In this document: positions 10,368 through 44,114 of the stretch, piece by piece
How the letters are laid out: each line of letters begins with the position of its first letter
Numbering within the stretch: position 1 is the stretch's first letter
Assembly: GCA_902728285.1 (NCBI GenBank)
Contig: CACVBU010001392.1
Location: 345,060-409,059, forward strand
DNA length: 64,000 nt
DNA from: Clytia hemisphaerica
Lineage: Eukaryota > Cnidaria > Hydrozoa > Leptothecata > Clytiidae
Direction of reading: 5' to 3'
Notes under the pieces: generated by a model
The model's input: the letters and a program-made list of their open reading frames with translations, nothing else
What the model was told of the DNA's origin: nothing
Databases searched by the model: none
Program-made: the position numbers and the translations under genes

Positions 10368-10543
10368 TGTTCAGACTAATAATTTGAGATAGTATAGGTC
10401 TTTATGACCGTCTCCGATGAGTCTTTCCGAGCAACTAAAATATAAATACAAAAGAGGACTGTAAAAAATAAAAGAGCGGGTCACGTGCTAATCACGTGAC
10501 CCGTGACTACTTATAGTTATATAACTCATCTTTGTTCTTCACA
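10368..10543 (-). repeat. 3' LTR of the BEL/Pao element
   Basis: The LTR has TG...CA ends. It contains a perfect 10-bp inverted repeat, GGGTCACGTG (10478-10487) and CACGTGACCC (10493-10502), with a 5-bp loop and a CACGTG E-box core in each arm. On the - strand a purine-rich GGGGGAG just outside it is the likely polypurine tract. The pol stop codon overlaps its first bases. Confidence 0.95.
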
Positions 10544-13500
10544 CTCCCCCAAAACAAAGGAAAATAATTGTGTCTTCGTCACTTGTGAATTTAATTTGGC
10601 TTTTGTCCTTTTGGTCTCTTTGTTCTTCAAATTCTACCGGATAGAGTTTACTTACCGGTCTTTTCAAAGTTTGTAGTTTACCGTTGGTAATAACATTTAC
10701 TTCTGCAGCACGAATTTTAAAGTCTTTACTGTGAATAAGTTTCTTAACTCGACCGAGTCTCCATTGACTACGTTTCAATCGTTCATCTTTAATCAATACT
10801 ACATCGCCTTTGTTTGCGTGTAAACTACTGTTCGACTTTTTACGTCTTTGATGTTCTCGTAGTTCAAGAAGGTATTCGTTTTGCCATAAAGTCCAAAAAT
10901 GATCAACAAGTTCTCGAACCCGTGATAACTGTTCGGAAGGTTCGAGATTTTCGGTTTCTGAATCTGGTAATTGCACTTCATTCACAATGTTTCTACCGTA
11001 CAACAGTTTGTTGGGTGTTAGAATTTCATTAACCTCGTCCGAATAAAGGTAAGTTAAGGGTCGATTGTTCAATATACATTGTATCTCTTTCAATAGAGTA
11101 ACTACGTCGTTAAAGTTCAATATCGCTTTACGTAACACTTTTCGTAAGCATCGTTTGACCATCTTTACGACTCTTTCAAAAAATCCACCTGTCCACGGTG
11201 AACTCTCAATATTGAATTTCCAAATAACACCTTTACTTGTCATGAAGTCTTGTACGTCTGACGAAATGAAGTTCGTACCATTGTCTGAAATAACAGTTTT
11301 CGGACATCCAAAAATGTTCGTGTAACGTTTGAGTATGTTTACGCACGCTGGACCAGAGCAGTCAGTAGCTAAGTCCAAATAAACTGCTCTGGAGCTGGCA
11401 CAAGTGATGATCGCTATCCATGCTTTGTAAGTCGACCCATCTGAATCGTAAATGTTTGTTACATGTACTGGGCCGGCGTAATCTATTCCAACGTGTGAAA
11501 ATGCGTTATCGTAAGATACTCGTTCTTTTGGCAGCGGACCTGCCTCTGGGTAATCGTAATTCTGTCCTTCATAATATCTACAAGTAGGACATTTACTCAA
11601 AATTCGTTTAATAAAGTTTCTCGGCTGCGTTATCCAATACTCTTGTCTGATGTGATTGAGGGTTTCTTTCACCCCTCGGTGCATAACGTCTTTGTGTGAT
11701 TTCAAGACGACGAGTTCGGTAAATTTCGTTTTTGACAGTAAAATTGGATACTTTGAATCATACGGGAGTTCAGCATTGTCTATTCTCCCTCTACAACGAA
11801 ACAAGCCATTATCATCAACAAATAAATTCAACTGTCTCTGTAAATTTGTAAAGTTATTTTTGCTTTGTAAGGAGCTTTGTGCATCCTTCAACCATAACAG
11901 CTTGGCTTCCAACATTTCTTCTCCAGTGATACCACCATTGATGCCATTGATACCATTGATACCACCATTGATTTTTGTTTTATTTGTATTATTTACTTTT
12001 TGTTTCTTGTTTCTTGCTTTTGTTCTTAGTTTCCTTATATATCTAAGGACCCAAGCGGTCACGCGGACCAACTTGGACAGAGAGGAGAACCTCTCTGTTT
12101 GGATTAAAGCACCGATGGTACTCGTTGAAACTAAATCTTCTTTTTCTTCTTTTTCTTGAATTTGTGTAACTAATAACTTTTCAGTAACAGGGTGCCTAGG
12201 AGAACTGAGACAGGTAGAGTTAGTCTCAGCCTCGGGCTTTAAATCAGCAAATAAATCATCAGGTGGCCCGTCAGGAGGACAGCTCCCGGGCTTATAATCA
12301 GAAAACTTGTCACCACACCTGAGATTAGGCCAGTATTCTTCATTCAGCTTAAGAAAATCTGGGCCGTGAAACCAAAGTTCAGAGTTAATCAAAGTTGAGG
12401 GGCTATAACCGCGAGTCCCTATATCTGCTGGATTAAGTTTAGATGGCACCAATTTCAAACTGTCAATATCAATACTGTTTCTAATACTTTCAACCCGTTC
12501 TTGTATATATTTGTCATAATCTACACTTTCGTTTTGAGCCCACGAATAAGCAGATGTAGAATCGACCCAATAAATAGTTTTTTGAACGTCGTACACCTTT
12601 TTCAAATTATTCTCCACAATAGGGCTTAATTCTGACAGAAGCAATAACCCGTTTAATTCACCTCGAGGGACGCTATTCTTTTTCGACTTTTTCACTTGAG
12701 AAGATATGATGCGGTGTCGACTTAAAATAATAGCAGTTTTGACCTCCCCGGATTTAAGCTTAAACCGGCCATAAATTGTAGCAGCAATCATATTTTCGGA
12801 GGCGTCACTGAAGCTGTGGATCTGTACATTCGTAATAGGGTCGTTGGGGTCGTCGAAGCAATAATTTCGATCAATTTCAATGGAGTCTATCTCCTTAAAT
12901 TCATTCAAAATGGACTTCCACTCTTTCATGAGGTCAGGGGGTAACAGTTCATCCCACTTACATTTTGCATTACAAACTTTCTGATGCAAAATTCTCATTT
13001 TGACTGTGATTGGGCTTATCAGTCCCAAGGGATCATAAATAGAAGCAATCGAAGCTAAAAGCGACCTTCGAGTTGCATTTTGTGTAAACTTTGATCTCAT
13101 TTCAGCAAAGTTAAAAATAATCTTGTCGGAATTTTTATCCCATTTAATCCCTAAAATTTTCTCTTCCCCGTTATATCGTTTGTCGTCAGGGAAACGTTCA
13201 AAAATCTTTCTCTCAAGTTCATCACTGTTTGAACGAAATTTTCTTAAATTAAATCCTCCCTTCTCAAGACACTCCTTCGCGGTGAGGTAAAGAGATTCAG
13301 CTTGTTTGATTGTTTTTGCACCACTATTGAGATCATCAACATGAAGAGCTCCTTTCAAAGTTTCTTTCAAATCATCCTCACAATGGGTTTCGATGTGTTT
13401 TTGAAGTGTCGCTTGCAATAAAAAGGGCGAGGAATTCAAACCAAAAATAACACGTGTAAATCGTAATTCAATAAGTTCATTGTTCTCAAAGTTTTCGAAG

Positions 13501-16046
13501 TCAAAATTTTCGGTGTCTTTGAACCAAAGAAATCTCACAAAGTTTTTATCTTCTTCAAACAATGCGATTTGCCAAAATGCTTTTTCAAGATCACCGGAAA
13601 TAACGAAATTATGTGCTCTCAATTTAATCAAAACGTCCAACAGAGGAGCGGTTATTGTTGGACCAGTATACAAAACATCATTTAAAGAGGGTCCGCCCAC
13701 TCGACTTTTGCAACTAGCGTCGAAAACAATACGAAGGGGTGTTGTTTGTTTATCAGTTCTTATAACCCCACGATGACTTAAATAATGGGAGGTGCCAATA
13801 GAATATTTCTCACATTCTTCAATAACTTTCAAGTTTCTTTGTTCATTTATAATTTGCTCATAATCTGCAAAAAGTTGTTTATCTTTCGAAAACTGTTCAT
13901 GCAGGTGTTGTAAACGTTTTTTAGCGGTTCTGTAATTATCTCCCAAAGGTTCAGAATTTTCTTTGAAAGGAAGTGAAACATGATATCTTCCTTCCTCGAA
14001 AACAGTCGATTTTTCAAAATCTTGTAAAACAGTTATATCCTCCTCTGTTAAAGTTTTTCTCCAATCAGTATCATAAGCTTTATTTAGATCTGTAAGTTTA
14101 TCCTCAGTTCGATCTGTTTGCACTGCACGCATAAAATGAGTACTAACAACGTTTGCGGTGGAGCTTTTAATCTTTCCCCCTCCTTCAACTGGACCGCTCA
14201 AAACATAACCGAGTTCTGACGATATAGCAGTAGGGCCATTTGGACTACGTATCTGTTTCTGACCAATAAAGTTCCAATAATCTGCTGAGCCGATCAACAC
14301 GTCTATCTGTAACGGTAGATTGTCGGGATTCTGGTCTGCTAATTTCAAATCTTGTAAATGTTTGTATTTACTTTGGGCTAAATTGATAACTTGATCCTCT
14401 AACGGTAAACAGATGTCTGATACGAGAGCACGTACGTAAATATTCAAAGTTCCTTTTTGGTTTTTAACAGCAAAATCAACTTCATCAAGTTCAAGATTTT
14501 CCGTTTTGTTTCCGAATGACATAATGTTAACCGATTTCTTGCCCACTGTACGTAACTTTAATCGTTCTCTGGCTTCCTTGCTAATGTAACTTTGTTGACT
14601 GCCGGTGTCGAACATAAGTCTCAAATTCTCTGATTTCTTTTCATCCGTTGAGCTGACTTGGGCTCTAGCTGTTTGAAGCAAAACTGGATTGGCTGTTTTC
14701 GTATAGCTGATGTTAGCAGTTACTTTCTTGGGTTCCTTCGTCTCAGAGTCCTTACTGTCCTTATCCTCCTGAGGTTTCTCTTGATCCTGACTGGGCTGAT
14801 AACAACAAATTGACGTATTGTGTCTACCTTGACATTTTTGACACTTCCAATTTTTCCTGCACTTGCCTGCTGAATGTCCAGTTTTCATACAAACAAAGCA
14901 CCTAGACTCTTTCATTAAAATTGACTTTCTCACTTCGGGTTTCGTAATAATATCACAGTTTTTTGAGTAGTGATCCCGCCGACAGAATATGCATAATAAA
15001 TCAGTTTTCTCTTTTCCTTTTTGATCAGAGTTACCAGAATTTCCCGAATTTTTATATCTATTTCTGTTTCCTCCCCTCCCGACGAAGAGAGATTGAGCAG
15101 TATAACCAGAATCACGCAAATTTTCTTCAGAAGAAACTTTTTCTCTAGCACACAATTCTTTTTCAAGTTCGTTCATAATGTCTGTCAATTTCCAGACATC
15201 TTCAAATTTTCTGGATAAAACGAGTTTTATATCTTGAGGGAGTTTCTCCATAATAATTGGGATAAGCATTGTCCCATAAGTTGTACTGTCGCAACCTAAA
15301 GAGTCCAAACTTCTTATCTCAGTTTCAATTTTGTCAAAAAGATTCCGCAAACCTTTAACATTTTTCGAATCAATAAACTCTAAGTCTAACAGTTTTTTGA
15401 CATGAGAGCTAATAACAAGTTGTTTATTACCAAAACGTTTTTCGAGCATTTCTTTTGCAGTTTCATAATTTTGGTGAGATAACTGCAGGCCTTTCACACA
15501 TCTTAGGGCCTCATCAGAGAGATAACTAATCAAATAGTTCATTTTTTCAATGGCAGATAGATCAGGATGTTTGTCTATCGCCTCCGTGAAAGATTGTTTA
15601 AAACTTTCATATTCTGTAGGTTCACCGCTGAACCCTTTAATGACGAAACGTGGCAGTTTCACCGGTACTCTTTTGCTCTCTGAATCTGTTGTAACTGAGT
15701 CACTGTCTTTTACACTAGCCTCTGGCTTTTTCTTATGTTTTGCAATAAAGTTTTTCAACACCAAAAGTTTCTTACTGTATTTCACCTCTTCTTGGTCGAC
15801 ACTGTTCCGATCGGCAATATAGTCAGCGTCTTCTTCAAGCATTTCTCCAATTTGTTCACTAAGGTCCAAATATTTCTTATATTTGTTTTGCAATAAAGTT
15901 TGTTTATTTTCCAAATCAATCAAAGTATCTTCATCAACAGTTTTTAAAGCAATGATCGAAGCCTCAAGCTCTTCGAAATAATTTTTCATGAAATTTAAAC
16001 AGCCGGTACGTGTTCTCTTTTTAGTGGTAAGCGACATTATGTACAA
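10539..16046 (-). CDS. BEL/Pao gag-pol polyprotein (1835 aa)
   Basis: This single uninterrupted ORF is the retrotransposon polyprotein, which makes and integrates the cDNA copy. In order: a coiled N-terminus; a DUF1759-like Gag region (around residues 130-300, motif FSGEPTEYESF); three CCHC-type zinc knuckles (around 350-415, e.g. RCFVCMKTGHSAGKC); a retropepsin-like DUF1758 protease (about 475, LMFDTGSQQSY); reverse transcriptase (catalytic HVDDL near 902, with DLEKAFWQIAL upstream); a Pao-type RNase H region (SFSDASENMIAATIYG); an HHCC integrase zinc module (KCPTCRYYEG); the integrase DDE core (GIDYAG near 1520, DNGTNF near 1588, GFFERVV near 1623); and a DUF5641-like C-terminus (KGDVVLIKDERLKRSQWRLG). 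Length and order fit the family. No frameshift or stop is seen, so it may be functional. The stop codon lies inside the 3' LTR. Confidence 0.97.
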   Translation of the reverse strand: MYIMSLTTKKRTRTGCLNFMKNYFEELEASIIALKTVDEDTLIDLENKQTLLQNKYKKYLDLSEQIGEMLEEDADYIADRNSVDQEEVKYSKKLLVLKNFIAKHKKKPEASVKDSDSVTTDSESKRVPVKLPRFVIKGFSGEPTEYESFKQSFTEAIDKHPDLSAIEKMNYLISYLSDEALRCVKGLQLSHQNYETAKEMLEKRFGNKQLVISSHVKKLLDLEFIDSKNVKGLRNLFDKIETEIRSLDSLGCDSTTYGTMLIPIIMEKLPQDIKLVLSRKFEDVWKLTDIMNELEKELCAREKVSSEENLRDSGYTAQSLFVGRGGNRNRYKNSGNSGNSDQKGKEKTDLLCIFCRRDHYSKNCDIITKPEVRKSILMKESRCFVCMKTGHSAGKCRKNWKCQKCQGRHNTSICCYQPSQDQEKPQEDKDSKDSETKEPKKVTANISYTKTANPVLLQTARAQVSSTDEKKSENLRLMFDTGSQQSYISKEARERLKLRTVGKKSVNIMSFGNKTENLELDEVDFAVKNQKGTLNIYVRALVSDICLPLEDQVINLAQSKYKHLQDLKLADQNPDNLPLQIDVLIGSADYWNFIGQKQIRSPNGPTAISSELGYVLSGPVEGGGKIKSSTANVVSTHFMRAVQTDRTEDKLTDLNKAYDTDWRKTLTEEDITVLQDFEKSTVFEEGRYHVSLPFKENSEPLGDNYRTAKKRLQHLHEQFSKDKQLFADYEQIINEQRNLKVIEECEKYSIGTSHYLSHRGVIRTDKQTTPLRIVFDASCKSRVGGPSLNDVLYTGPTITAPLLDVLIKLRAHNFVISGDLEKAFWQIALFEEDKNFVRFLWFKDTENFDFENFENNELIELRFTRVIFGLNSSPFLLQATLQKHIETHCEDDLKETLKGALHVDDLNSGAKTIKQAESLYLTAKECLEKGGFNLRKFRSNSDELERKIFERFPDDKRYNGEEKILGIKWDKNSDKIIFNFAEMRSKFTQNATRRSLLASIASIYDPLGLISPITVKMRILHQKVCNAKCKWDELLPPDLMKEWKSILNEFKEIDSIEIDRNYCFDDPNDPITNVQIHSFSDASENMIAATIYGRFKLKSGEVKTAIILSRHRIISSQVKKSKKNSVPRGELNGLLLLSELSPIVENNLKKVYDVQKTIYWVDSTSAYSWAQNESVDYDKYIQERVESIRNSIDIDSLKLVPSKLNPADIGTRGYSPSTLINSELWFHGPDFLKLNEEYWPNLRCGDKFSDYKPGSCPPDGPPDDLFADLKPEAETNSTCLSSPRHPVTEKLLVTQIQEKEEKEDLVSTSTIGALIQTERFSSLSKLVRVTAWVLRYIRKLRTKARNKKQKVNNTNKTKINGGINGINGINGGITGEEMLEAKLLWLKDAQSSLQSKNNFTNLQRQLNLFVDDNGLFRCRGRIDNAELPYDSKYPILLSKTKFTELVVLKSHKDVMHRGVKETLNHIRQEYWITQPRNFIKRILSKCPTCRYYEGQNYDYPEAGPLPKERVSYDNAFSHVGIDYAGPVHVTNIYDSDGSTYKAWIAIITCASSRAVYLDLATDCSGPACVNILKRYTNIFGCPKTVISDNGTNFISSDVQDFMTSKGVIWKFNIESSPWTGGFFERVVKMVKRCLRKVLRKAILNFNDVVTLLKEIQCILNNRPLTYLYSDEVNEILTPNKLLYGRNIVNEVQLPDSETENLEPSEQLSRVRELVDHFWTLWQNEYLLELREHQRRKKSNSSLHANKGDVVLIKDERLKRSQWRLGRVKKLIHSKDFKIRAAEVNVITNGKLQTLKRPVSKLYPVEFEEQRDQKDKSQIKFTSDEDTIIFLCFGGV

Positions 16047-16231
16047 CTTTTTACAACGAAACTCTGGACCAAAATGTTCTTCGTGAAACTATATACATTC
16101 AATATTTACATCCAGAAAACAAAACCATGAAATCAAAACAAACCAAAACCATAAAGTAACAAGCCAAACCATAAAATAAATTTCTTATACTTTATAATTT
16201 CTCTACTTTTATTTTTTGTTTTTAATATCCG

Positions 16232-26623: not shown

Positions 26624-28047
26624 CTGTTGATGCTGTCAACTATGGAAAAACAGTCAATGAGGCGGTTGAAGAGATCGAAAAATCGATCAAACAATCCCGC
26701 CATATCGAAGAAGAGTTGAAAGAAACTTTGGAAGAAACAGCAGTGCACGAGAGCATCACCAACAGTTTTGAAGCTGATGAAGACAATCTTCTAGCGTCTC
26801 TCGAAGAAACAACGAAAAGCAAGAAAAATGAGAAACGTTAACCTGTAACAGAACTGTCCGGGTTCTGGGATGATGCACTATCGACTTTTTCAGTGCAAGC
26901 AACAACCAATGAAGAGATCAACAACCAATTTTACGCGCCAGGTTATTTTAACTTTATTTCTACTTACCGACTTCCGATGGCAACTCTTTGGACTGGTCTC
27001 TGCCTTGGTAATTTGACAAGATTTGGAGCCAACAACCATGAAGAGCAACAACCTTCTGCTTCGAAATCAACATTGAAAAGTAATACTACAACTGCCCAAG
27101 TTGAGGGATATTTCTCCAACCTGAAACGTCTGCAAGGCTTACATCAGCCTATCCCAGCATTTATTGAAAACACCTACATAGATCTCCAATGGCAGATGCG
27201 TCAGTTTTATGATGGTCTTTTAGAGGGCAGGTCAAAATATAATTTGGAGAGAACACCAAAGATTTCTGATGAAGATTTTCTTCCTAACAAATCTATTAGA
27301 GTTGAAGAGGGCTGGAAAAAAAGAGAGAAGCGGACCGATTTGAATGAACAGGGGTTTTACCGATCCACCAGGAGGAAGACCCTGGATTTTAAACCTAAGC
27401 CAAAATTTGAAAGAACGAAAGAAGAATCTAGAAATATCTGTGTCGTCTGCAAAGAGGAGGATAATGACTTGTTTGAATGCATCATCTGTCACAACCCTTA
27501 CCATGCACATTGCGCAGGAACAGATATTGCATACGCCAGAGTTACGCCACGTTTTGTTTGCGACCGCTGTATTAAGTCCCGCTTCTTACCGTTTACTAAT
27601 TACATCGGGTTCAAAAACGAAGAAGAAACAGACATCGCAGTTTTGGAGTTTCTTTGGAATTCGAAAGAAAAGGAAGAAAAAAAGTTCTGAAAAGCCATCC
27701 TTTATCTTACCAGCTTGTCCCTGCTCTGAAAGTCAAAAGGCTCTGGCATAAAGAATCCCTTCAATAATTGTTGGGTTAACACTGTATTACAAGTTATTTC
27801 TGGAAGCACTTTCTTTGACTTTCTGTCCAGCTTGTGTCAGCCAAACAATGAGATCTTCAGCCATCTTGCAACTGTCAATCAAAGATTAAAAGTATGCAAT
27901 AAACCTCTTGAAGTCAACGACGGGGTACTAGCAGATTGGACCACCTCTTACTTTCAATTAGGCGCTCCCATCTCTAACGTTGAAAATGGCAAAACGATAA
28001 ATTTGGAACACGTTCCACTGAAGCATACGGTTAATATGTTTAAATGA
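26602..28047 (+). pseudogene. Transposase-like / PHD-finger gene broken by stops
   Basis: One frame carries protein-like sequence over about 1.45 kb but is interrupted by TAA (26839), TGA (27688) and TGA (27727). Part 1 is a Glu/Lys helical stretch. Part 2 contains PMATLWTGLCLG and AQVEGYFSNLK; the VE-x-F-x-x-LK motif followed by helices is seen near the end of DDE transposases of several eukaryotic DNA transposons, and I cannot assign the superfamily. Part 3 is a PHD-type finger (CVVCKEEDNDLFECIICH, then HAHC and CDRC). Part 4 begins NPFNNCWVNTVLQ, like the Cys box of ubiquitin-specific proteases. Such multi-domain proteins are typical of large animal DNA transposons. This copy is dead unless the stops are errors. 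Confidence 0.6.
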
Positions 28048-30970: not shown

Positions 30971-31237
30971 GCTTGTATTGATTGGGACTTCAATCTTTAT
31001 TGTCAAAATCATGAACAACGACGATCAACCACCGCCTTTTCTGCCGTTATACTGTCAACTGCTAGTGCTGTACCTCACGGTTCAAACAGCATTACTCAAA
31101 CCTCTGCTTCCACATCAACAGCACCAGTCTCCTCAGCAGGCGACGTGACCGATATCTTGAGAACGCTGAAATCATTAAACGACAGCCGACTTAGTGCGTT
31201 GTTGCCTACTGCTTCAAGTCATGTCCTTCCAGGTAAC
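30971..31237 (+). pseudogene. DIRS-type gag, 5' part
   Basis: This open Ser/Thr-rich frame has no in-frame ATG that I can identify; it ends in VTDILRTLKSLNDSRLSALL and then the AGGTAAC target site. Its last codon is continued in frame at 43149. An upstream in-frame TGA (30968-30970) limits it. Confidence 0.55.
31231..31237. repeat. Left target-site duplication AGGTAAC
   Basis: This 7-bp direct repeat abuts the left inverted repeat of the large transposon; its partner is at 43142-43148. A 7-8 bp TSD is characteristic of P-superfamily transposons. Confidence 0.9.
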
Positions 31238-31273
31238 CATGAAACTCAAACGGATGGAAGCCCAACTCATTGT
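31238..31273 (+). repeat. Left terminal inverted repeat of the P-type transposon
   Basis: 36 bp beginning CATGAAACTC and ending CTCATTGT, identical to the reverse complement of 43106-43141. Similarity fades just inside. Confidence 0.95.
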
Positions 31274-31474
31274 TTTGAAGCGCGTTGGGATCTTTTATTG
31301 CGGAACAATAAGAAGGTTACGTCAAATTTCTTTCTAAGAAAGCGAGGCCTCGATAGCCCAAACGTATAAATCTCAAAAGTATAACATAGCCCTCAATCGT
31401 GGTGTAACAATAAAAGTTAAAAACGTGGGTCTCCTGATCAGTGCACAGTGGATAAAATAAATTGCTTCAGAAAA

Positions 31475-33279
31475 ATGGATGGATTTAATGAAAACATTAT
31501 TGATTTTGATGATGATTTGTTCAATGAAGAAGAAGTTGATGAGCTGTTCTTCATCACTGAAAATGCAGGCAAATCCATTGATTTTGAAATTGAACTTGCA
31601 CCTACAGACCACACTCAGCTGCTTGAAAATGATGCTGAGCTTTCAACCATCCCCCCTTTGACTTTCATTGATGAAAAGGATATTGATGTTTTGGATGTGC
31701 CTGCTATCAGATTTGTTCCAGAGAACTGCAATGCTGAAAAGATTGTTGACGTGTTCATTTGTAGGTGGTGTAAACAAACATTTAGAAGTAACACTGTTCT
31801 TCAAAACCATGACAAGAAGTGTTTTCAGAACCCCTCAAAAAGAACAAAACTTGGAAATAAAATTGGTATTAATTTCTTGTATATCTTCCAAAATTATATA
31901 AAGTAAATATCTACCGTAAATTGTTACGGTACTCACTAAAAAAAGCTTCAGAATATTCCATCGTGCATGCATTCTCATTGAAAGTTCCCTTTTTTGTAGA
32001 AGATTTCTCAACAAGTGACAAGTACATTTTCTCAGTTAATTTTTTTTCAAATAAATGATTAAAACAATAAAACATAGATATATGGTATAAATATGTTGGC
32101 TGCTGAGTCAAGTCAAGTGGGGCAAAATAATTATATATCACACAGATGATTAAAGTTGTGTTGTTTTAAATGTATATAAGATAACTCTAAATGAAACAAC
32201 CAGTGTCAAATTATTTCCAATTTACTCTTACTTTAATTTTTCAGTACTATCAAAGACGGACTTGGAGCCAATCAGAAAGCAGTCTCAGCAGCACTTTACA
32301 ATCGCTTTGGATCTTGCCATCAACGATGATGTACTCAACCTTAAATCGGGTAAAAATTTGAGTCCTGGAAACTGTGCGTCCAAATTGGCAAAACAAATGT
32401 CTGAGAAATCTGATCTTGCCACCGCCCAAATTAAAGATTTTGCTGACCACATTCAGGAATTGCTTCTAACCTCTGTCAACACTGATTTTTGTCCTGAAGC
32501 ACGTCAACAGGCATGCACAAAATTTTCATACGTGACAACCAGTGAATCTGGAAGGAAAAAATCTAATACAATAATTGAACATTTGAAGTTAAAGAAAGAT
32601 GGTTTTGACATTTTATACACTTTTGTTGTAACAAAAATATTTTCGTTGATTTTGAAGTGGAAAAATGAAATCGTCATTAAAGTACCAAAGGTCGATTACA
32701 ATCTGGTCAAGATATCTGTTGAGTAAGATAAGGTATTACGGTATGTTTCTGGATTTATACCTTTTTTCCTTAAAAAAGAGATTTTCCAGACTGAAGGAAT
32801 CGATGCTTAGGAGTGCAGTTCTTCAACTAATAAATACATGGTGCGTAGAAGGTGAGGTTGAGGACGCAACTGACTTCTACGATTACACACTTTCTTGGAC
32901 AAATCGCATAAACAGGGGTGGATTGATGATTGTTAAAGAGACTTTTTTTGTTTTCATTAGAAGAATTGAAATGACTGTACGTGGAGTACTGAATCAAACT
33001 TTGATTCAGACGTACAATGGAGAGGATTTGAGAGACATTATTCTGGAGAAACTGATGAAAAGTTTATTGATTGAAAGCTCTTGGGCCTCATTAAGCAGAA
33101 TGTTGTTATCTGAAAAGCTCAAAGTGACACTGAAGCAGATTGTTTTAAAGAAATGGGTGAATTTACGCATACGGTCGTTTGTGACAGCTTGGATACAGGC
33201 ATCAAAAATGAAACAAAATGATAAAAAACTTTCTAAAAAAGCTGAGGTCTCTTTGCGAAAGGGTCTTAGTACAAACTAG
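31475..33279 (+). CDS. Transposon-carried C2HC-finger protein (452 aa, 3 exons)
   Basis: Exons 31475-31865, 32245-32722 and 32790-33279 join in phase (G|TA and GA|A junctions) with GT-AG borders and no stop until TAG at 33277-33279. The start ATG lies 4 bp after a possible acceptor (GCTTCAG). The N-terminal ~90 residues are very acidic (DFDDDLFNEEEVDELF). A C-x2-C-x12-H-x4-C finger follows (around residues 97-119, CRWCKQTFRSNTVLQNHDKKC-like spacing). The rest is mainly helical, with a conserved-looking core containing WTNRINRGGL and RRIEMTVRGVL, and a Lys-rich C-terminus. I do not recognise a catalytic domain. Its position inside the inverted repeats, its intact frame and its convergent partner suggest an accessory protein of the transposon, perhaps DNA-binding. 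Confidence 0.8.
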
Positions 33280-35169
33280 TTTTATTTATTTTTTCATTAT
33301 ATATACATGTATATTTTATGTAGCCTGGGATTTCAAAACATCAAAATTTTGCCCTTTTATTTTCCAAGTAGTTTACCATTATGAACACACCTTTTTGGAA
33401 GCATATACCTCAAGTGGATAAATTTTGGCGGGGATTAAATTTGGCGAATTTGGCGATTTTTTCCAAAATTCGCCAAATTAAATCCTCACCAAAATTTCAA
33501 AAATCAGCCATTCGCCAAATTAAATCCCCGCCAAATTTAATGAAATTTTTTAAAGATAGAAATTCTATGGAGAATGTGTATTTCTTAGTAAAATACCACG
33601 TATTTTTTTTAGTTCACCACAGAATAAAGCCTTCCGACTTGCCAAATTAAATCCCTGCTAAATTTTACATAATTGAGCATTTGCCAAATTAAATCCTTGC
33701 CAAAATTTATCTATTTAAGGTAATTGAGTCTGAAATTATCTTAACAAGTATGTTTTTTTGTGATACTGTACATACACAATAAATTGGTTATAATGATAGT
33801 TGTATTTTTATATAAACTTTATTTTCTAATTCTCTATATTATTTATTTTTGCTAAATCACCCAGCTCCTAGCTTGTGGTTTGTAGATTCTTTTGAGTCTC
33901 TTCTCTGTTCTTATTGCGTCTTTCACCAAGTTTTAGTCCTAAAAAAATTAGGCCCTATTTGTTGTGTTGTTGTGTTGTTTCGAAACTTTCGAATAACAAA
34001 AATCTTTTTGTATAGCTTAAAAAACTGGGTTAGCTTAGCTAAATATTCATTCATGATATCTTGATGATATTTACTGCTTTTTTAAATGTGCTTGTGTTAG
34101 GATTTTATTTTATTTGAACTATGTATATAGATTTAAAACGCTACACTACAATTATGGTCAGCATATACCAAGTATTTGGTGATCGAAGAGATAAAAAGAT
34201 ATCTTCAGCCTGATTGTAGTATTTCATTATGGCCCTGAGATTTTTGAAGCCCTAGTCAAGTTCTCTATTGATTTTTCAGTAGTTTTTTTTGTATTTGATA
34301 TTCTTAACCTCTTACACAAATTTAATTGTCATTATTTGTCAGCGCTTTATTTCACTTCTATATTGTGTATACTTTTAAAGAAGTCTTCATATCGAAATTA
34401 TTTGTTATCACTGTTTTCTTTTGTATCAGATAGAATCAACCCTCAAAATTAATATTACCTTGGAAAGAATTTTTTATTTGTAGAATTTTCCAACATTTAT
34501 CTTTGATTTCTGAAAACCTTCTACCCTTGCAAACTACTTTGAAGTTTTCTGGTTTGATGATTCGACTAAAAAAGGAGCAAATTTTTGGAAATTATAGAAA
34601 TTTCTAGATTAAATTTTGACACAAAAATATTGCTGGAAGAAAGAAACATTTAACAAATTTTAGCAATTTTAGCTTGGAGGTTATGCTTATTTTTTGCAAA
34701 TTTCAGCTTAAGTATGCTTATAAAAACAGATTGTACCATATTTTTCAGTTGTCAATTCAAGTATTGGATAAAGTTTTGTAACAAAATAAGTGTATCAATT
34801 GATATAATGGCTTATCTAAAGAATTGAAAATGGTAGTTTCTAATGCTAAAATGGCAATAGAAAGTTACCTCTTGTAAGTCATATTTTATGGCAAGTGATC
34901 GAAAAAGATATCCGAAATAAGAAACTATTGATGTGGTGATGATTTAATCTGAGTGACAAATTCAAGAATTATACACATTTCTTTATAAGCAACTCTATTT
35001 TTCACTTCAGAGCTAAGGCTAATTTCTGGAAAGTTTGTCTAGGCCCCCTCACAATTATACCTTTAAAATCCATTTCAGAGTGAGCGGAACTATTTCCAAT
35101 TGTTAGAATTTAAAAATAATTTTCTTCAAGAGATAGCCAAAATGTTTGACACCATTTTCAGGGTCCAGC
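33280..35169. other. AT-rich non-coding centre of the transposon
   Basis: At 33420-33710 there are several copies, in both orientations, of a GCCAAATTAAATCC motif forming imperfect hairpins. I see no other genes. Confidence 0.5.
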
Positions 35170-35742
35170 AGGGGGGGGGTCATGCAGTTATTATATAAAC
35201 ACTATGACAATAACTACCGTGGTGGTATATAAACCAAAATTTGGGAAAACAGTTACTCCACCAGTGGACTAACTGCAACATGGGTGGTGCCTAAAGCCCA
35301 AAATTGTCGATTTTGGTAGGAAATGGTGTACTAAGTGAGCACATCTTTCAATTTTTCACTTAAAACTTTAGGTTTTTAAAAATTCCGGAAGCAAAAAAAT
35401 TCAAAACATTTTTTTCAAAAGTCAAAAAAAAATCACAAAATTTTTTCTTCGATCAAGGCATGAAAGATATTTTAACAAACTTGGAAAATGATTGAGATAT
35501 TTAACTCTTGAACGGTCGTTAATAAGACGTACCCAATAAAATGGTATCAAAAATGAGGAATTCAGTGAAAAAATTGCCAAATTTGGCATTTTTGGGGGTG
35601 GTATACACCAATTTTGAGGGTAAAGTCAGTTAGTACACTATGGAATAACTGCAAGGGTGGTGGTGTCTGTAGAAAATGTCCAAAGTTGCAGTTACTCCAC
35701 ATAGTGTCAAGGAGTAACTGCAAGACCCCCCCTGGGTCCAGC
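35161..35742. mobile_element. 564-bp MITE nested in the P-type transposon, 9-bp TSD
   Basis: The element 35170-35733 starts AGGGGGGGGG-TCATGCAGTTA and ends with the inverted TAACTGCAAGACCCCCCCT. It is flanked by GGGTCCAGC on both sides (35161-35169 and 35734-35742). No coding frame. A 9-bp TSD fits Mutator-like elements, among others. Confidence 0.85.
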
Positions 35743-36307
35743 CCTTAGCAACCAGGTATTTAAAAAATGTGTACTAAAATTTCGCAAAAAACAACTAACA
35801 TAGGTAATTTTATATTTTAAATGCATCTTTTCCAGGGCCACAGTTGACTGGATTTTTAACAACATAACAATATTCTTTATGTACAATTTTGTTTTACAGC
35901 ATAAATATATGTTTCAAGAGTAAAGGTTCCTAAGCACTCAAAGTCAGTATAAAAAATACCTTAATATAAATGAAATTTTCCTGCTTTTAAGAAAATAAGA
36001 GTTTTATAAAAATAGTTAAATATTTTAATATAAATAAAAGATTCTTCCTTATAGAAATGTAAGAAGTTTATAAAAATAGTGATGAAATAACAAAATTTAG
36101 TTTTAAATTCAAAGACAAATGCAATAATTTAATTATTGATTGGCGGGAAGTCCATTCTAAGGTGATTTTGACCTTTACCCAATGTGAATTAAGTGCGTGG
36201 ATGAAAGTCTTATATTGCCTTTTGAAAAAAAAAAAAGTTTGCTGCCTTGCTTGGAAATTTGGAAAATAAGATTATAAACAAAAAATATTATAAACGAGAA
36301 AGTTATT
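35743..36307. other. Non-coding tail between the two convergent transposon genes
   Basis: AT-rich; no exon seen. A polyadenylation signal for the - strand gene would be expected here; several TTTATT (AATAAA on -) occurrences are present. Confidence 0.4.
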
Positions 36308-39300
36308 TTATATTTCAACTGTAGATTTTATTTTTTTTGGTCTAGTTGGTAGCCTTGTTGTGTCGTTGACGTCCAAGCTCACTTTCTTTCGTTCCTTGTT
36401 GCGTACATTCCCATTTAACACCTTAATCAAATTATCACCGGCAACATTCAGTCCTAAAACATTTTTGTTGACCATATCAAGACTTGGATTTTCGTCAGGT
36501 CCCCTCTTTGCTCTCTGTTTGGAAAAATATTCTTCTACAGGATCCTGCGAGAGCTTTTCAGTGAGAAAAAACTGTGCCTTCTCCTCATCAAACAATAGTT
36601 TTCCCAATTTGATAAATGACATTGCTGTAAGAAAATGAAAAAAATTCAGTCATTTTAATCAGCTAAAAAAGTTGATCTTCAATTTATAGTCAAAGTTTGA
36701 ACACTCTTTAAATTTAGCCAGATAAAAATAAAGCTTTGTCCATCTCTCATATTCCTATGTTTATTGCACCATACCAAGAGCCCTAGGTTGACTCTAAAAA
36801 ATTTCCTTAAAACAACTTTTGTTCAACATATAGTGTAAGCAAACCTTTTTCCCGGCTAAATGGAATAAGTGACTAATGCTTTTGAGCAAAAAAAAGCAAA
36901 CTAGGTTTTAACAAAAACTTCATTCCTTACTTGTTATGCGCAAACCAGCCAATGTTTGCTGTGATAGTTTGAGCTTTGCCTTTTCGTCGGCTTTTAAGTC
37001 AGCTTTTGAATTTACTTGCTCGTCCCATTCATCAAAAAATTTTAGAAAGGTGTTTTCCAACCACTAAACAAAAAGAAAAAAAAAATATGTAATTTAGCAG
37101 GCTTTTTAGCAGAGCTAGAAAAAAAAAACAGTTGCTTATGTCTTGAAGAAACCATGCCCACTTTTTGCTTTGGTAAACAAATTTAAACTATCATTCAATT
37201 ACTTTCCAGTTTGAGTGATTACATAAGGTTGTGTCTTTTTTGTGAAACTCTCAAATTATATTCTATAATAGAGTATTTGGTAATTCAAATGCCATATGAT
37301 AGAACTAAAAACAAAGATATCACATCAGGGAAATCTTTCCCTCAAAAGAATTTTTTAAACAAGGAGAACGTGCATCCATTAGTTAAAGCTTACCTCAAAT
37401 CTCCAGTCATTTGAACCTCTATAGGCATCTTTTGCTTTTTTTCCCGATTTGTTGATCAGCTTGCAGACATTCAGACAGTCAAAAAACGTATCAATGAGGC
37501 GAATAAATTTCGAGAGGGACTCGGTACCAGATTTTTTTGTTCCCCCAGCATGTCAGCAACAGTAGCACTTAAGACCTGTACAAAATGAAAAATCAATTTC
37601 AATTTTATAAAAAAACATATAGTTGAATTAACCTGCTTCTTTCAAACAGTCATGGGAACTTTTAGGTATATAGACAATAAACTTCCTTTATTATACATAC
37701 TTGTGCAGCAAGATTCACACGCATTCTGCTCCTTGGATCCAACTTCATATGTTCGTGTCTCAGCTTATGTCCAAATCTGATGCCGAATGAATATCTCGAA
37801 GGGCGAAGATCCCAATCGTATAACTTCATTAATTGATGCCATCCAATTTCCTTTCCATCATACTGAAAATAAGAGAAAATATCATATTTTAAAATTGTAA
37901 ATTTATTTTTTTTAACTCCTGTACGCCACCAAAAGAAAACTGTATTTAAAAAATGTCAAAAATAGCATGCATTTTAAACGAAAATGGTTGCTAAAGTGTA
38001 AAGATGGCAGATAGTCAGCTGACATGGATTTTCATAAGAAACACATTTAAAGAAATACATAAGGAATTTAGGCTTTTACAAGAAGAGTTCTGCTCTTTCT
38101 CTTGCAAATGAGTTTTCCAAATTGTTCCGTGTTGTTTTGATGAGGTGAGGCACGTCGCATATAAAGAAGATCTTTCTCTTCATTGAATAGGCCCAAGGAT
38201 TCCAAGCCCAGTAAACATTACCATGGAACAAATTACTTTTATCTGGAAGTTTATGAAGCTCAAAGTACTTTCTGTTGGGACTTGCACCGTCAGCTGTGAA
38301 AGAGCGCACTTTCAAGCCAATACTTTCCAGTATGCCAATGGCTTCATGAGCACAATGGAAGATCTGGTCTGATGTGAATCCTTCACTGGCAAAATGACCA
38401 AATACATATTCTAGATCTGAACACAATCCACGTATACCATCTTCCTGTAAATTTATCAAAAACCAATCCACTCTATAAAAGAATTTGGAAAAGTCAATAC
38501 ATATTATGAATTTAAATAAATGTTGATGATATTTGACAATCTCTTCAAAAACTCTTCCATTACTCTAAGTTACTTGTCATACCCTTGAACTTTGAAAGAA
38601 AACTTTTTCTGAAACATTCAGAATTGTCACATTTTCAACCCTATCTGCTTACTTTAATTTTCATTTCATCGAACACCAAGCCAACATTTTTCTTTGCCTC
38701 GTCTTGTATAGTGTCCATCTTCAATTTGCTAATTAGCCGCTTAATAATGTCGGGGTTAAAGCCACATCCTGGTGTTGTGAAGTTAATATACTTCAGTAAA
38801 GTATTTTTCGAAGGTAAATACATAAAAGGCCCAGCTTGAATGTGTTTGTAAGTACCTGGAGATTTCAGGTATATACTCAAACTCCATCTGATGATGAGTG
38901 GGTGCCAACGCATTCCCCTTGGATCTGATTTAGCAAATTTCTTTTGTTCAGTCCATAACAAATGTTGAGGGGTATCTTCATCAAATGGGTTTTCGTTTTT
39001 ATCAATCACAGATTTACAAATATTCTGAGTTGTATCGTCTAGATTTACTCCATCTTCAAAAATATTTTTTCGGACATCATTTTTCATCTGGTTGTAGTTC
39101 CTTAAAATATTTGCTTTTTCTTTCTGGATCATTTCACACTTTTGTATCAATTGCCCAGTGCTTAGATATCTGAAATTGAATTAGAAAAAATAATTTGCCA
39201 ACCTTTGTACAATTTTCATACAAAATGAATATATTATTACACCTATTATATAAATACAATATATTATATAATTTTGGCTGATTATAATACTGATTATAAA

Positions 39301-40460
39301 AAAAATATAGTTTCATTAATATAATTTTATGAAAATAAATCGTAGAAAGATCATAAAATCAAGTTTCCCATAATCAATAAAAATGTTTAATTTCTGTTTC
39401 TGCTACATCGACACTCATTAAACTTTAAAAATTTAAGAATGGTTATGAAACAGAATCAACAATGAGAATAATCTGAAAAGATATCCAAAAGCAAAAGTAA
39501 AATTTAAAAGAACAAAAACAATCCTCTCCATTTCTGTATATGTAATATAAACTTACAGAGCTTCTGATTGAAATAGAATAACACTTACCATAGAACAGGA
39601 GATAAACAGAAGAATGAAAATATATGTTCCATTTAAGCTAAAATGAACTATTAAGTAACTGTCATCGTCATAATCATTTCTATAATTTATAATGTATATA
39701 AAACAATGTAAGCAACACAAATAAGCGAGGAGTCTTTGTCTGTAAATCCAAGCTATTTGAAGAATAATGAGGGAACTTTATCCTGTATTAGACAGTTAAA
39801 TATTTTTTTCAAAATTAAAATGCTTCCCTTACAAATCTTTTCAAATATGGTTTATCTATATATTAATAGCCGTAGTCTGTATGTCATTTTGTTTTTTGTT
39901 GGTTTGTTTTTTGTTGGTTTGTTTTTTGTGTGTCACTTTCGTTTTCGCAAGCAATGTTTTGTTCTTTTAAAAGATGACTTTCGCTTCTTGCTCCACAAAT
40001 GTGTTAAATCAGATTCGCGCCGTTTTTATAAAGACTTTGTTTTGATTGATAGATTAGACTTTTTCTTTTTTTTTCTCTCTTTTCTTTTGTTTAATCTTTT
40101 CGAATGTAATTAACGACCTTATTTGATTTGAGACATTCGAATTCTTTTCAAAACAAAAATCTTTTAAACAGAATCTGTTAAAGAAAAGAACAAATATAAA
40201 ATAAAACATAAGAATCACAAGACAAGTTTGTTAGAACAACAGCAACATTAAAAATAAATTCAAAAGGCGGTAAAAACTAGAGTTCTTTCTTCGTAAAAAG
40301 GGACCTTTAAACATCTATGTCGATAATTATTTTGCTGTAAATCTAAGTCATTGTTGAATTTGAAATTGAATTTGAAAAGTTATCGAAGTTATGACGAAGT
40401 TATTTTATAAAAAGCAACATAAAATTGCGCTATCACGCTTTTTTGTCTGCGTTAGCTGCC

Positions 40461-41130
40461 TTCCAGGGAGACTATGGTTGCGAGCTGACTTTCGGCCCTG
40501 CCCCTCGGACCCTGTGAATAAAGAGGAGAAGAAACAAGGGAAATTGTGTGAATTTTAATTCACTTTTTGGAACTAATTTGACCAAATTTCTATCTTTCTG
40601 GGGGAAAAAAGTTGAAATTTTCCTACTTTTTCGATTCTTAGTGGGACTGAAGTTTGATTTTCCGATTTTTCAAACTGCCATGTTTCAAAAAAGGCACCCT
40701 TAAGGCCGGCAAATACCCATACCCTTCTCTTGCCTAAGTACCCCCCCCTCCGGGCTACCTTTTTTCGACGAATCTCGTACCATGTCTATTATTTCACTCC
40801 GCTTATCTTGACATCAAAGTTTTCCTAAACATCAAGAACTACGGCAAATGTAACGCGAGCGAAGCGAGAAAAAAAATCTAATTGCAGAGCCGTCTCGGAC
40901 GTCGCTGGTCGCCGGTATGGTGTAATTTGGGAATGACGCCCTTTTTCTGTTTTCTGATCATTTTTGCCACAAAAATCTTTTTCAAAGTATGGTTAAAAGA
41001 TACGTCACCCGGGAGGGATAGAGTCAAACTTTGATTTCATCGTGTTTAAGCCACCTTCCCAACATCTCAAAGGACTTTAAATGCGTTCAGCAAACAGCTA
41101 AACCGGCGTGCGACGCCGGGTACCGGCTAG
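40461..41130. repeat. GC-richer insert in a transposase intron
   Basis: Base composition differs from its surroundings. It includes GCGAGCGAAGCGAG (40855-40868) and ends with CCGGGTACCGGCTAG (about 41118-41132), a motif also present near 19428 in the same orientation. It is probably a remnant of a dispersed repeat; its boundaries are uncertain. Confidence 0.35.
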
Positions 41131-42145
41131 TTAGACAATAATAAAACAATGGAATTTTAAACACACCACGATACTTGGTGTATTTAGCGCAAAATATACC
41201 TGTTGTTTGTCTGAGGTGCAATCAACTCTTCATTTGATCTTCTTTTTCGTGAGCGCATAGCAAATAAACTATTGCGATAATGTGAGCAAGGTTCACATCT
41301 TTTCCCTGGAAATTATGTAGGGTATGGTACAATATCAACTCAATATTCAAAACTTTTGGTATTATTATTAGAAAATACGACTAGCAAGGACTTTATAGCA
41401 TTACATAATGCATATGATAAAATTAAAAAATACATGTAAAATATACAAAAGAACAAACCTTTACTTGAGTTGATCAGTACGTCACAATTTTCATGCCTGA
41501 TTACAGTGACATCCCTCAAGGTCTTTCCATCCACAGTTTTTAAATGACTTGTAACAGTTTTATCAGTTGACATGAATAGAATAGAGTCATCTAAATCACC
41601 CATTTTTCGTGAGACTAGGTCTTCAAAGTCTTCATTGCCTGTACAATATATTGATTGTTGAAGTAACTTAAAAATTTCATCAGTGTTCAAACTAGTTATA
41701 ACATTTGGAAAATTCAGTTTCGTAAGGACCTCACGTCTAACAGGCTTGCCATGAATTGTGACGGTGTAATCACCTGTATCAAAAATTTCAAGACTTTTTA
41801 CTGGTCCAAATGACTGACAACCAAATATATTCTTTCCGATTTCCTAAAAAACGTAAAATTATAAATTTATATATTTTTACATAATATGCAAATTGCATCT
41901 CAAAATTGGGCATGAATAGAAACATTACAACACAAAAGCAATACATACAAAACAGCTTTGGCGATGAGAAAAAAATGTTCAACAAACTTACTGATATACA
42001 AATTTGAATCTAGCTATTTTGTTGCGAGAACATGTCGGTTTTAAAACCCGAGGATCGGCATTTTAGTAGGAGCATCTTACGGTATATATAACCAAGATAT
42101 CAGCAAGAGAGAATTTATACTAAATATATATAAATTTATACCTAC

Positions 42146-42504
42146 CTTGAATCCAAATTTTAGAGCTGAATTTGTTGTTGATGGTTCCATCTTTTCTTTC
42201 ATGGTTGAAATTTGAATTTTCTGTTGGCAAACATAACAAGAAGAGCCACCACCACCACCATCATCATCATCATCGTCATCGTGTGGTAAAAAGTTATAGG
42301 TGGTTATTAGTTCTGTAGTTTTATATTTCTTCATTTTATATAACTTCATGTAGCATTTGTTGCACAAACTTCTTGGATGGATGTTGGCTTCATCATTATC
42401 AATTCCATCTTCACTAATTTCGCAGACTGATAACCTCCAGAAAATGTGATCTTTAAGCCACAAATTCTGCATAATCTTCCCAGTGAAGCAAGATGTTTAT
42501 CCAT
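42146..42504 (-). other. RAG1-NTD-like Cys/His module (first transposase exon)
   Basis: The exon begins MDKHLASLGRLCRICG. After a 1-nt frame change it continues IHPRSLCNKCY, then LPHDDDDDDD and SCYVCQQK. The order C-x2-C, HP-x3-C-x2-C, PH, C-x2-C matches, from memory, the N-terminal zinc-binding region of vertebrate RAG1. The exon is 359 nt and should be 357 or 360 to keep phase with the next, which supports a single-base loss. Role: likely zinc-dependent DNA binding or dimerisation; inferred. Confidence 0.65.
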
Positions 42505-43105
42505 TTTAAAATTAACCCATTTTAATGTGTCTTAAATCCTAGAATCACCACAGAAAAAAAAATTTATTCACTCAAAAAAGTCGAGTATTGATGAAGGTTA
42601 TTGAGGCAAAAAGCCCTGACAACAACGTCATTTTAGCATGATTTTTGTCAATGTTAAAACAAAAGGAATGGGCTTTTCAAATGAGGAATGGCTAAAAAAC
42701 AGCATTCATTTTTTAGATAAACTCTTTACCTGTCATCTGTAAAAAATTCCAGCCCATTCCCTCAAAGGAAAAGAGATAGAACTCCTTTTTTCAACCACAA
42801 CAAATCAAAACAGAAACTCAGTGTCGTGTTTTTGATGCTATTGTGTCGTCTACCTTGTCTCGATGAATAAAAAGTTTGAGGAACATTCCTTCTGGATGTT
42901 GGTACAAAAATAATCTTTGAACCCTCTAATCAAAGTTATAGCCTGACAGCATAAACGTGAAAGGAGAACTCTCAGAATTTATGGTCGTTATGCAAGCCAA
43001 GTCGGAAAAAAATTTTTCGACGCCATGTTGAAAATCACTAAAATTCAAAATTTTGGCGGCAACGCAGATCCTGCGCAAAGGATAAAGCGCGGCTTTGTTT
43101 TTTAG
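42505..43105 (-). promoter_or_regulatory. 5' region of the transposase gene
   Basis: Non-coding DNA between the right inverted repeat and the transposase ATG. On the - strand it contains AACATGGCGTC (about 43018-43031), a YY1-like motif often found at animal promoters. This is the likely promoter region, by position only. Confidence 0.3.
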
Positions 43106-43141
43106 ACAATGAGTTGGGCTTCCATCCGTTTGAGTTTCATG
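43106..43141 (-). repeat. Right terminal inverted repeat of the P-type transposon
   Basis: Perfect reverse complement of 31238-31273, followed directly by AGGTAAC (43142-43148). Confidence 0.95.
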
Positions 43142-43148
43142 AGGTAAC

Positions 43149-44114
43149 TTACAGAACTTAATTCTTCCCCAACAATTTCAAAGGACAACTACGACCTTCA
43201 CGCCCGTTACCGTCAACACGACCGCCTCTAACGCCCTCACGGGAGCAATCAACATAAACAATAATGGTAACCCGGCTACGAGTACGGGTGAAAACGTCTT
43301 GCTTTCGTTGCCACTCCTCCAACAACAACTTGGACATGCTTTGCAACAGCAACAACAACCTCAACCTCAACCGTGTACAAACGAACTGCCTGTTATCCCA
43401 GCAAAGATCATCAAACAAATAAAGAATGGCGAGTTCATTGACTTTGACCTCTTGCTGCCTAGCAATATTGGCAGGCCTGCCAATAATTCAGTATCATTTG
43501 CCTTTGATGGAGATGGAAATATCTCCCTCCAACAGCGTGGTGACTCCTCATCTAATCTGTTAACCAAAAAAGCAAAGGTTATTGATCTAAATTCATGGCT
43601 GATGGCGTGGTCCAGGTTTTTTCAAGCCACCTTGGTTTTTCGCCCTTTTCTTGTCAACCAGATGATTGCCTATCAAGTTTATATTGCACAACTAGCTAAC
43701 GACTACTTTTTTAATGGGTGGTACACTTACGACAAAGCGTTCAGAACTTTTATCGCCAACAACCCCACTGCTAGATGGGATATCAATAACACAACTTTAT
43801 TCATCATGCACCTCCAGGGTCAAAGGGAGCCTAGCAAATGTCACCTTTGCCAGAGCAAGGACCACCTTGCCCCTCGATGCCCTGTGTCTTCTGCTTCCCT
43901 TTCTGGTCGGTCGGCCTTGAATCTTGGCTTAGCTCCTCAGCTTGCACACCACACCCCTCGGTTGCCTTCCCATCCTGGCCCTCGCCCCCCTTTCCCTCGT
44001 GCACAGTACTACCAACCCTACCCTTCCCTCCGCCAACCCTTTCCTAACCCCCAGCAAGCTTCCTCTGCTGCCAATACCACGAAGCACTGTCATCTTTTTC
44101 ATCTTTTCAAATAA
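43149..44114 (+). pseudogene. DIRS-type gag, 3' part
   Basis: The frame resumes here without a stop from the target site to TAA at 44112-44114. It encodes a Thr/Asn-rich region, a Gln-rich stretch (LLQQQLGHALQQQQQ), then IIKQIKNGEFIDFDLLLP and WLMAWSRFFQATLVFRP, a zinc knuckle (CHLCQSKDHLAPRC) and a Pro-rich tail. This order is that of DIRS/Ngaro Gag-like proteins. Confidence 0.75.

Follow-up and report, generated by a model that had tools for sequence, protein, structure and literature searches.

A P-superfamily transposon of the hydrozoan Clytia hemisphaerica whose transposase is probably split into two convergent genes

Why does a transposon with a P-type transposase carry a second gene that faces the first, and what does this second gene encode? 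The question is raised by an element of Clytia hemisphaerica that lies in a stretch of 64,000 nucleotides (contig CACVBU010001392.1, positions 345,060 to 409,059; hereafter the window, in whose numbering the element is described). An earlier note on this DNA had proposed a complete P-superfamily transposon with two intact, convergent and mutually unrelated genes. We conclude that the window element is probably a defective copy of a Clytia P-superfamily cut-and-paste transposon in which the transposase is split into two convergent genes. The computed evidence comprises the ends and duplications of the element, its gene order, a convergent pairing that is repeated across the genome, the constraint on both genes, complementary matches to the fold of the fly enzyme, and a fusion in a sponge.

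The element is 11,904 bp long (window 31238-43141) and is bounded as follows.

31231..31237, no strand: left target-site duplication AGGTAAC, read from the sequence
31238..31273, plus strand: left terminal inverted repeat, 36 bp, 100% complementary to the right arm
43106..43141, minus strand: right terminal inverted repeat, 36 bp, 100% complementary to the left arm
43142..43148, no strand: right target-site duplication AGGTAAC, read from the sequence

In 64 kb of the window's base composition, chance alone would yield about 6e-12 such 36-bp inverted pairs. The genome has at least 40 matches to the last 192 bp of the element, a number that includes the window copy. The element begins with the letters CATG, as does the fly P element. 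When the flanks are joined with a single copy of AGGTAAC, an open frame of 410 aa (89 + 321) spans the joint. These observations bear out the perfect ends, the 7-bp duplication on both sides, the resumption of the host frame and the complete ends at an unusual size that the earlier note had read from this locus. The host frame interrupted by the transposon occupies window 30971-31237 and 43149-44114. A zinc-knuckle match in its right part is below threshold and is in keeping with a gag-like gene.

Between these ends, a P-type transposase (minus strand) and a second gene (gene 2, plus strand) stand tail to tail. The exons of the transposase, which we call subunit A, are these.

42149..42504, minus strand: exon 1, RAG1-type N-terminal zinc module; 22-bp deletion here, 3' boundary approximate
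41454..41843, minus strand: exon between the zinc module and RNase H; boundary approximate
38644..39180, minus strand: start of RNase H, VFDEMKIK motif; 5' boundary approximate
38079..38472, minus strand: RNase H with TADGASPN and CDVPHLIKTTRNN; PF21787 E 1.4e-6, 5' boundary approximate
37698..37867, minus strand: GTP-binding insertion domain; PF21788 E 0.0073, below cut-off, boundaries approximate
37389..37577, minus strand: exon after the GTP-domain exon; 1-bp deletion in the window copy, boundaries approximate
36926..37063, minus strand: exon with WLENTFLKFF; boundaries approximate
36308..36625, minus strand: last exon, LSQDPVEEYF with the last catalytic Glu, short basic tail; PF21789 E 0.002, below cut-off

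The RNase H domain with its GTP-binding insertion places the element in the P superfamily, as had been supposed, and its catalytic core is of the P type and not of the RAG1/Transib type. Neither the window pieces, searched up to E 0.1, nor the transposase of the related element C907 yielded a THAP domain, and THAP occurs in one of the 50 best transposase homologues scanned for domains, out of 77. Nor was a C-terminal domain (CTD) found in the same chain as the transposase: the tail after the last catalytic motif is 66 aa long in P0008, and 52-87 aa long in 32 of the 34 homologues that have this motif.

The exons of gene 2, whose splice was taken from the annotated Clytia protein P0001, are the following.

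31475..31867, plus strand: exon 1, acidic stretch and C2HC finger CX2CX12HX3C (by eye); 3' boundary approximate
32244..33279, plus strand: exon 2, predicted helical domain and putative P-type CTD; 5' boundary approximate

Both genes, described as intact in the earlier note, are broken in the window copy, as judged against the near-identical Clytia copies C613 and C792. The transposase has lost 22 bp in exon 1, about 0.12 kb in exon 4 (near the 5' side of 38079..38472) and 1 bp in exon 6; gene 2 is interrupted by a premature stop and by an insertion of 1 bp, and the frame of its second exon is broken near 32724-32765. The window copy is therefore dead. C613 has both genes and a transposase exon that is 99% identical in protein, and its gene-2-side end falls in N; C792 retains the gene-2 half only. 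A segment of about 1.26 kb (window 39868-41131) has no counterpart at the DNA level in C613 and is perhaps an additional intronic insertion.

To what extent the two genes belong together can be seen from related copies in the Clytia genome (417 Mb, 951 contigs). As the searches score the best candidates, the counts given here are lower bounds. No complete second copy of the window's own family was found, and to this extent the recurrence sought in the earlier note did not appear, but three complete sister families contain the gene pair, enclosed by homologous ends. C907 is about 12.57 kb long with a 7-bp duplication GGTTAAC, C348 about 11.5 kb with GTTGAAG and the end sequence CACGG, and C250 11,040 bp with a 7-bp duplication GTCACTG, so that all four complete two-gene elements have 7-bp duplications. 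Two further loci, C34 and C886, carry both genes and their ends are not established; a candidate single element at C34:1686.5k-1706.1k was dropped, as its flanks have no common duplication, and is counted as a gene pair only. The long exon of gene 2 is open at four loci (C348, C250, C34 and C907; 350-401 aa), and its first exon has homologous exons in C348 and C250. At C907 the spliced transposase is open as well and equals Clytia A0A7M6DPD0 (100% identity over 926 aa), while gene 2 of C250 equals a Clytia UniRef protein (100% identity over 97% of the query). Computation shows sequence constraint on both genes.

Relatives with other contents were also seen. A relative of 4,710 bp (L064, G000:C810:365572-370281) is bounded by perfect ends of 39 bp and by the 7-bp duplication TTTTAGA; neither gene was matched in it below E 0.2, which suggests movement in trans. 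End matches with a similar spacing on C129, C294, C797, C869 and C899 suggest a non-autonomous family. At G000:C286:57017-59302, two copies of the right end lie in the same orientation, 2.1 kb apart. Outside Clytia, P0014 (of the subunit A type) and P0091 (a gene-2 protein) come from contigs of equal length, 72,433, and this length is the one hint that the two genes may be linked in another organism too.

What does gene 2 encode? Its model is nearly all helical, and the predicted fold of P0001 matches the very part of the fly P transposase that is absent from subunit A. A protein of the sponge Ephydatia contains both the transposase part and the gene-2 part in one chain, and this fusion is a stronger argument than the fold match. 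The claim that gene 2 is unrelated to the transposase thus did not hold up: it best fits a separately encoded CTD of the P transposase, which we call subunit B. In the strand-transfer complex of the fly, as described in PMC7776569, a flexible and disordered linker joins the CTD to the RNase H domain; the CTD lies between the RNase H domain and the GTP domain of another subunit, in contact with transposon and target DNA. Such a domain could be supplied in trans. In the mechanism that we propose, A would recognise the transposon ends through its zinc module and cut with GTP. B would dock in trans where the CTD sits in the fly enzyme, between the RNase H domain and the GTP domain of the other subunit; there it would grip the looped transposon strand and make contact with the target DNA, and its own C2HC finger would add a contact to DNA or to a partner. 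Both subunits would be needed for transposition, and staggered strand transfer would leave the 7-bp duplications. The arrangement may have evolved by the split of one chain or by the fusion of two.

Two other explanations of gene 2 have to be weighed. It might belong to another element nested in this copy, or might be a host gene that was captured and sits there by coincidence, and 20 of the 75 gene-2 loci (from 81 rows, 6 of which were dropped as fragments or second rows of the same locus) indeed have no transposase within 20 kb among the matches listed. For the transposase, 147 of 150 rows were used and three second fragments left out. At least 50 convergent pairs of gene 2 and transposase were found, however, where about one neighbour is expected, both genes are present in four complete elements, and in the 25 of 26 inverted pairs viewed, no arm other than that of the element's own ends lies to the left of gene 2. 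As the convergent pair recurs across the genome, gene 2 is not a stray nested insertion, and we dropped this highly improbable explanation; the two-gene architecture proposed for the window is upheld by the same pairing. Alternatively, gene 2 could be an accessory or regulatory protein without homology to the CTD, beside a transposase that works alone with a shortened C-terminus. Two-gene elements of this kind have precedents in MURB of MuDR and the Myb-like protein of Harbinger, and RAG2 would be a further parallel. MuDR combines the convergent genes mudrA and mudrB in one DNA transposon; it differs from the Clytia element in its transposase family, and mudrB is not known to be part of the transposase. 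An accessory role would agree with the C2HC finger, with the lack of any Pfam family above cut-off in the Clytia proteins scanned, and with the lack of a significant match in plain Foldseek; a sequence search of the PDB gave nothing useful, and the fold match came from a second-look aligner. A SAM_1 match on gene 2 of C907 (E 0.0018) was set aside, as it is present in one of 38 members. The split transposase is also weakened by the nature of its support, since the match between gene 2 and the CTD is structural, modest for a helical domain and weak in sequence, and the sponge fusion rests on one protein cluster. Still, the fold match falls on exactly the missing part of the fly enzyme, and both parts are joined in the sponge, so that we consider a merely accessory protein unlikely.

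The zinc module at the N-terminus of subunit A, a feature shared with RAG and ProtoRAG, raises a similar question of kinship. On the broken exon 1 of the window, RAG1_imp_bd scores E 0.02, below the Pfam cut-off. A profile built from the N-termini of nine P-type transposases, including those of the two-gene elements C907, C348 and C250, retrieves RAG1: the chain 21wb_A scores E 8.9e-14 and the full-length protein E 6.2e-11, with an alignment that extends through a later H..C..C motif. The likeness to RAG1 might merely reflect that both modules are fingers of the CxxC type, in a broader group that would include ZAD, without special kinship. The nine-member profile does reach a fly ZAD chain (E 2.3e-4) and a bacterial Fin chain (E 1.9e-4), zf-AD matches 9 of the 50 homologues scanned, five of the nine members were picked with their PF12560 match in view, and the comparison took in no Transib or Chapaev proteins. 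Yet a control profile of five N-termini chosen without PF12560 (C907, C348, C250, P0010 and P0050) also ranks RAG1 first (7e-10 and 1.4e-5), against 0.0082 for Fin and 0.011 for ZAD, and PF12560 is found in 18 of the 50 homologues (best E 1.8e-10), which makes a mere common membership of such a broader finger group improbable. Single proteins of the Clytia clade score lower (C907 E 9.5e-4, below the Pfam cut-off).

The Clytia genome contains at least 37 PF12560 matches at E up to 0.1 (34 above the cut-off, frame neighbours counted, and 3 below; all 37 were used), and the identical search of 14 control genomes gave no matches. Twenty-two of them, against 0.13 expected, have a listed transposase match no more than 5 kb away, and all 22 are on the same strand and upstream of that match; the other 15 have no transposase within 5 kb among the matches listed. 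Sixteen of the 37 are within 20 kb of a gene-2 locus (0.27 expected): 14 convergent, one tandem and one divergent.

How does this element compare with known systems? The Drosophila P transposase (PDB 6p5a, 6pe2), THAP9 and zebrafish Pdre2 are like the Clytia element in the RNase H fold, the GTP-binding insertion and the catalytic motifs. They too have a CTD, whereas in Clytia it would lie on a second, convergent gene, and the Clytia transposase has a RAG1-type zinc module where fly P and THAP9 have an N-terminal THAP. The Clytia element is about 12 kb long and the fly P element about 3 kb. Galileo, also of the P superfamily, probably has 7-bp duplications too. The Clytia elements, the C810 derivative included, have 7-bp duplications as against the canonical 8 bp of P, given for Pdre2 and fly P in PMC10983969, and the 5 bp given for Transib and RAG1/2 transposition in PMC8355894.

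In ProtoRAG / RAGL, two convergent genes (RAG1L-RAG2L) lie between inverted ends (PMC7204232), a layout that the Clytia element shares together with the zinc module. The likeness to RAG1/RAG2 seen in the earlier note therefore stands for the convergent pair and was even understated, as the transposase also has a RAG1-type module. The element is nevertheless no ProtoRAG, because its core is P-type instead of Transib/RAG1 and no RAG2-type gene was found: the second protein is not kelch/PHD RAG2-like, no kelch was among 25 of the 35 Pfam families seen for gene 2, and its model is helical whereas a kelch propeller is beta. Transposon-encoded zinc regions like the RAG1 N-terminus are described for N-RAG-TP of Aplysia and for Chapaev / TransibSU (Chapa) (PMC8355894, PMC4411706). 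In Clytia, the module and a P-type catalytic domain occur together, which PMC4411706 did not know in 2015. There, Kapitonov and Koonin state that neither the RING finger nor Chapa, their name for a part of the RAG1 N-terminus, was known from any transposable element outside the Transib superfamily. Chapa and the zinc module appear to be the same domain and, if so, the sequences of these P-type elements would contradict the Transib-only statement. Neither a split P transposase nor a P transposase with a RAG1-type module was the subject of any paper among the best-ranked open-access PMC matches.

If the transposase is split as we propose, a DDE enzyme that flies make as a single chain operates here as two chains encoded by convergent genes, a layout that is otherwise the hallmark of RAG. 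The RAG1 N-terminal module, whose origin is debated, would likewise occur in a second superfamily of transposons, represented in hydrozoans, amphioxus and a sea cucumber, which opens the question of its origin to phylogeny. In our judgement, the evidence is evenly balanced on a wider proposal: a large, animal-wide P branch would have an obligate two-subunit transposase, with the RAG1-type zinc module and the P core encoded by one gene and the CTD by the gene that faces it, the RAG1 N-terminal region would be homologous to it and perhaps exchanged with it, the RAG1/RAG2-style convergent pair would have arisen more than once, and transfers of the zinc module from one transposon superfamily to another would predate V(D)J recombination. 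As both genes of C907 are open, the dependence of the subunits on each other can be assayed directly.

The window contains further coding sequence to the left of the transposon. An open gag-pol-like frame of 1849 aa (window 10539-16088, minus strand) is a retrotransposon by eye, and a frame of 282 aa (window 26842-27690, plus strand) has a PHD-like Cys/His stretch, also seen by eye, in its C-terminal part.
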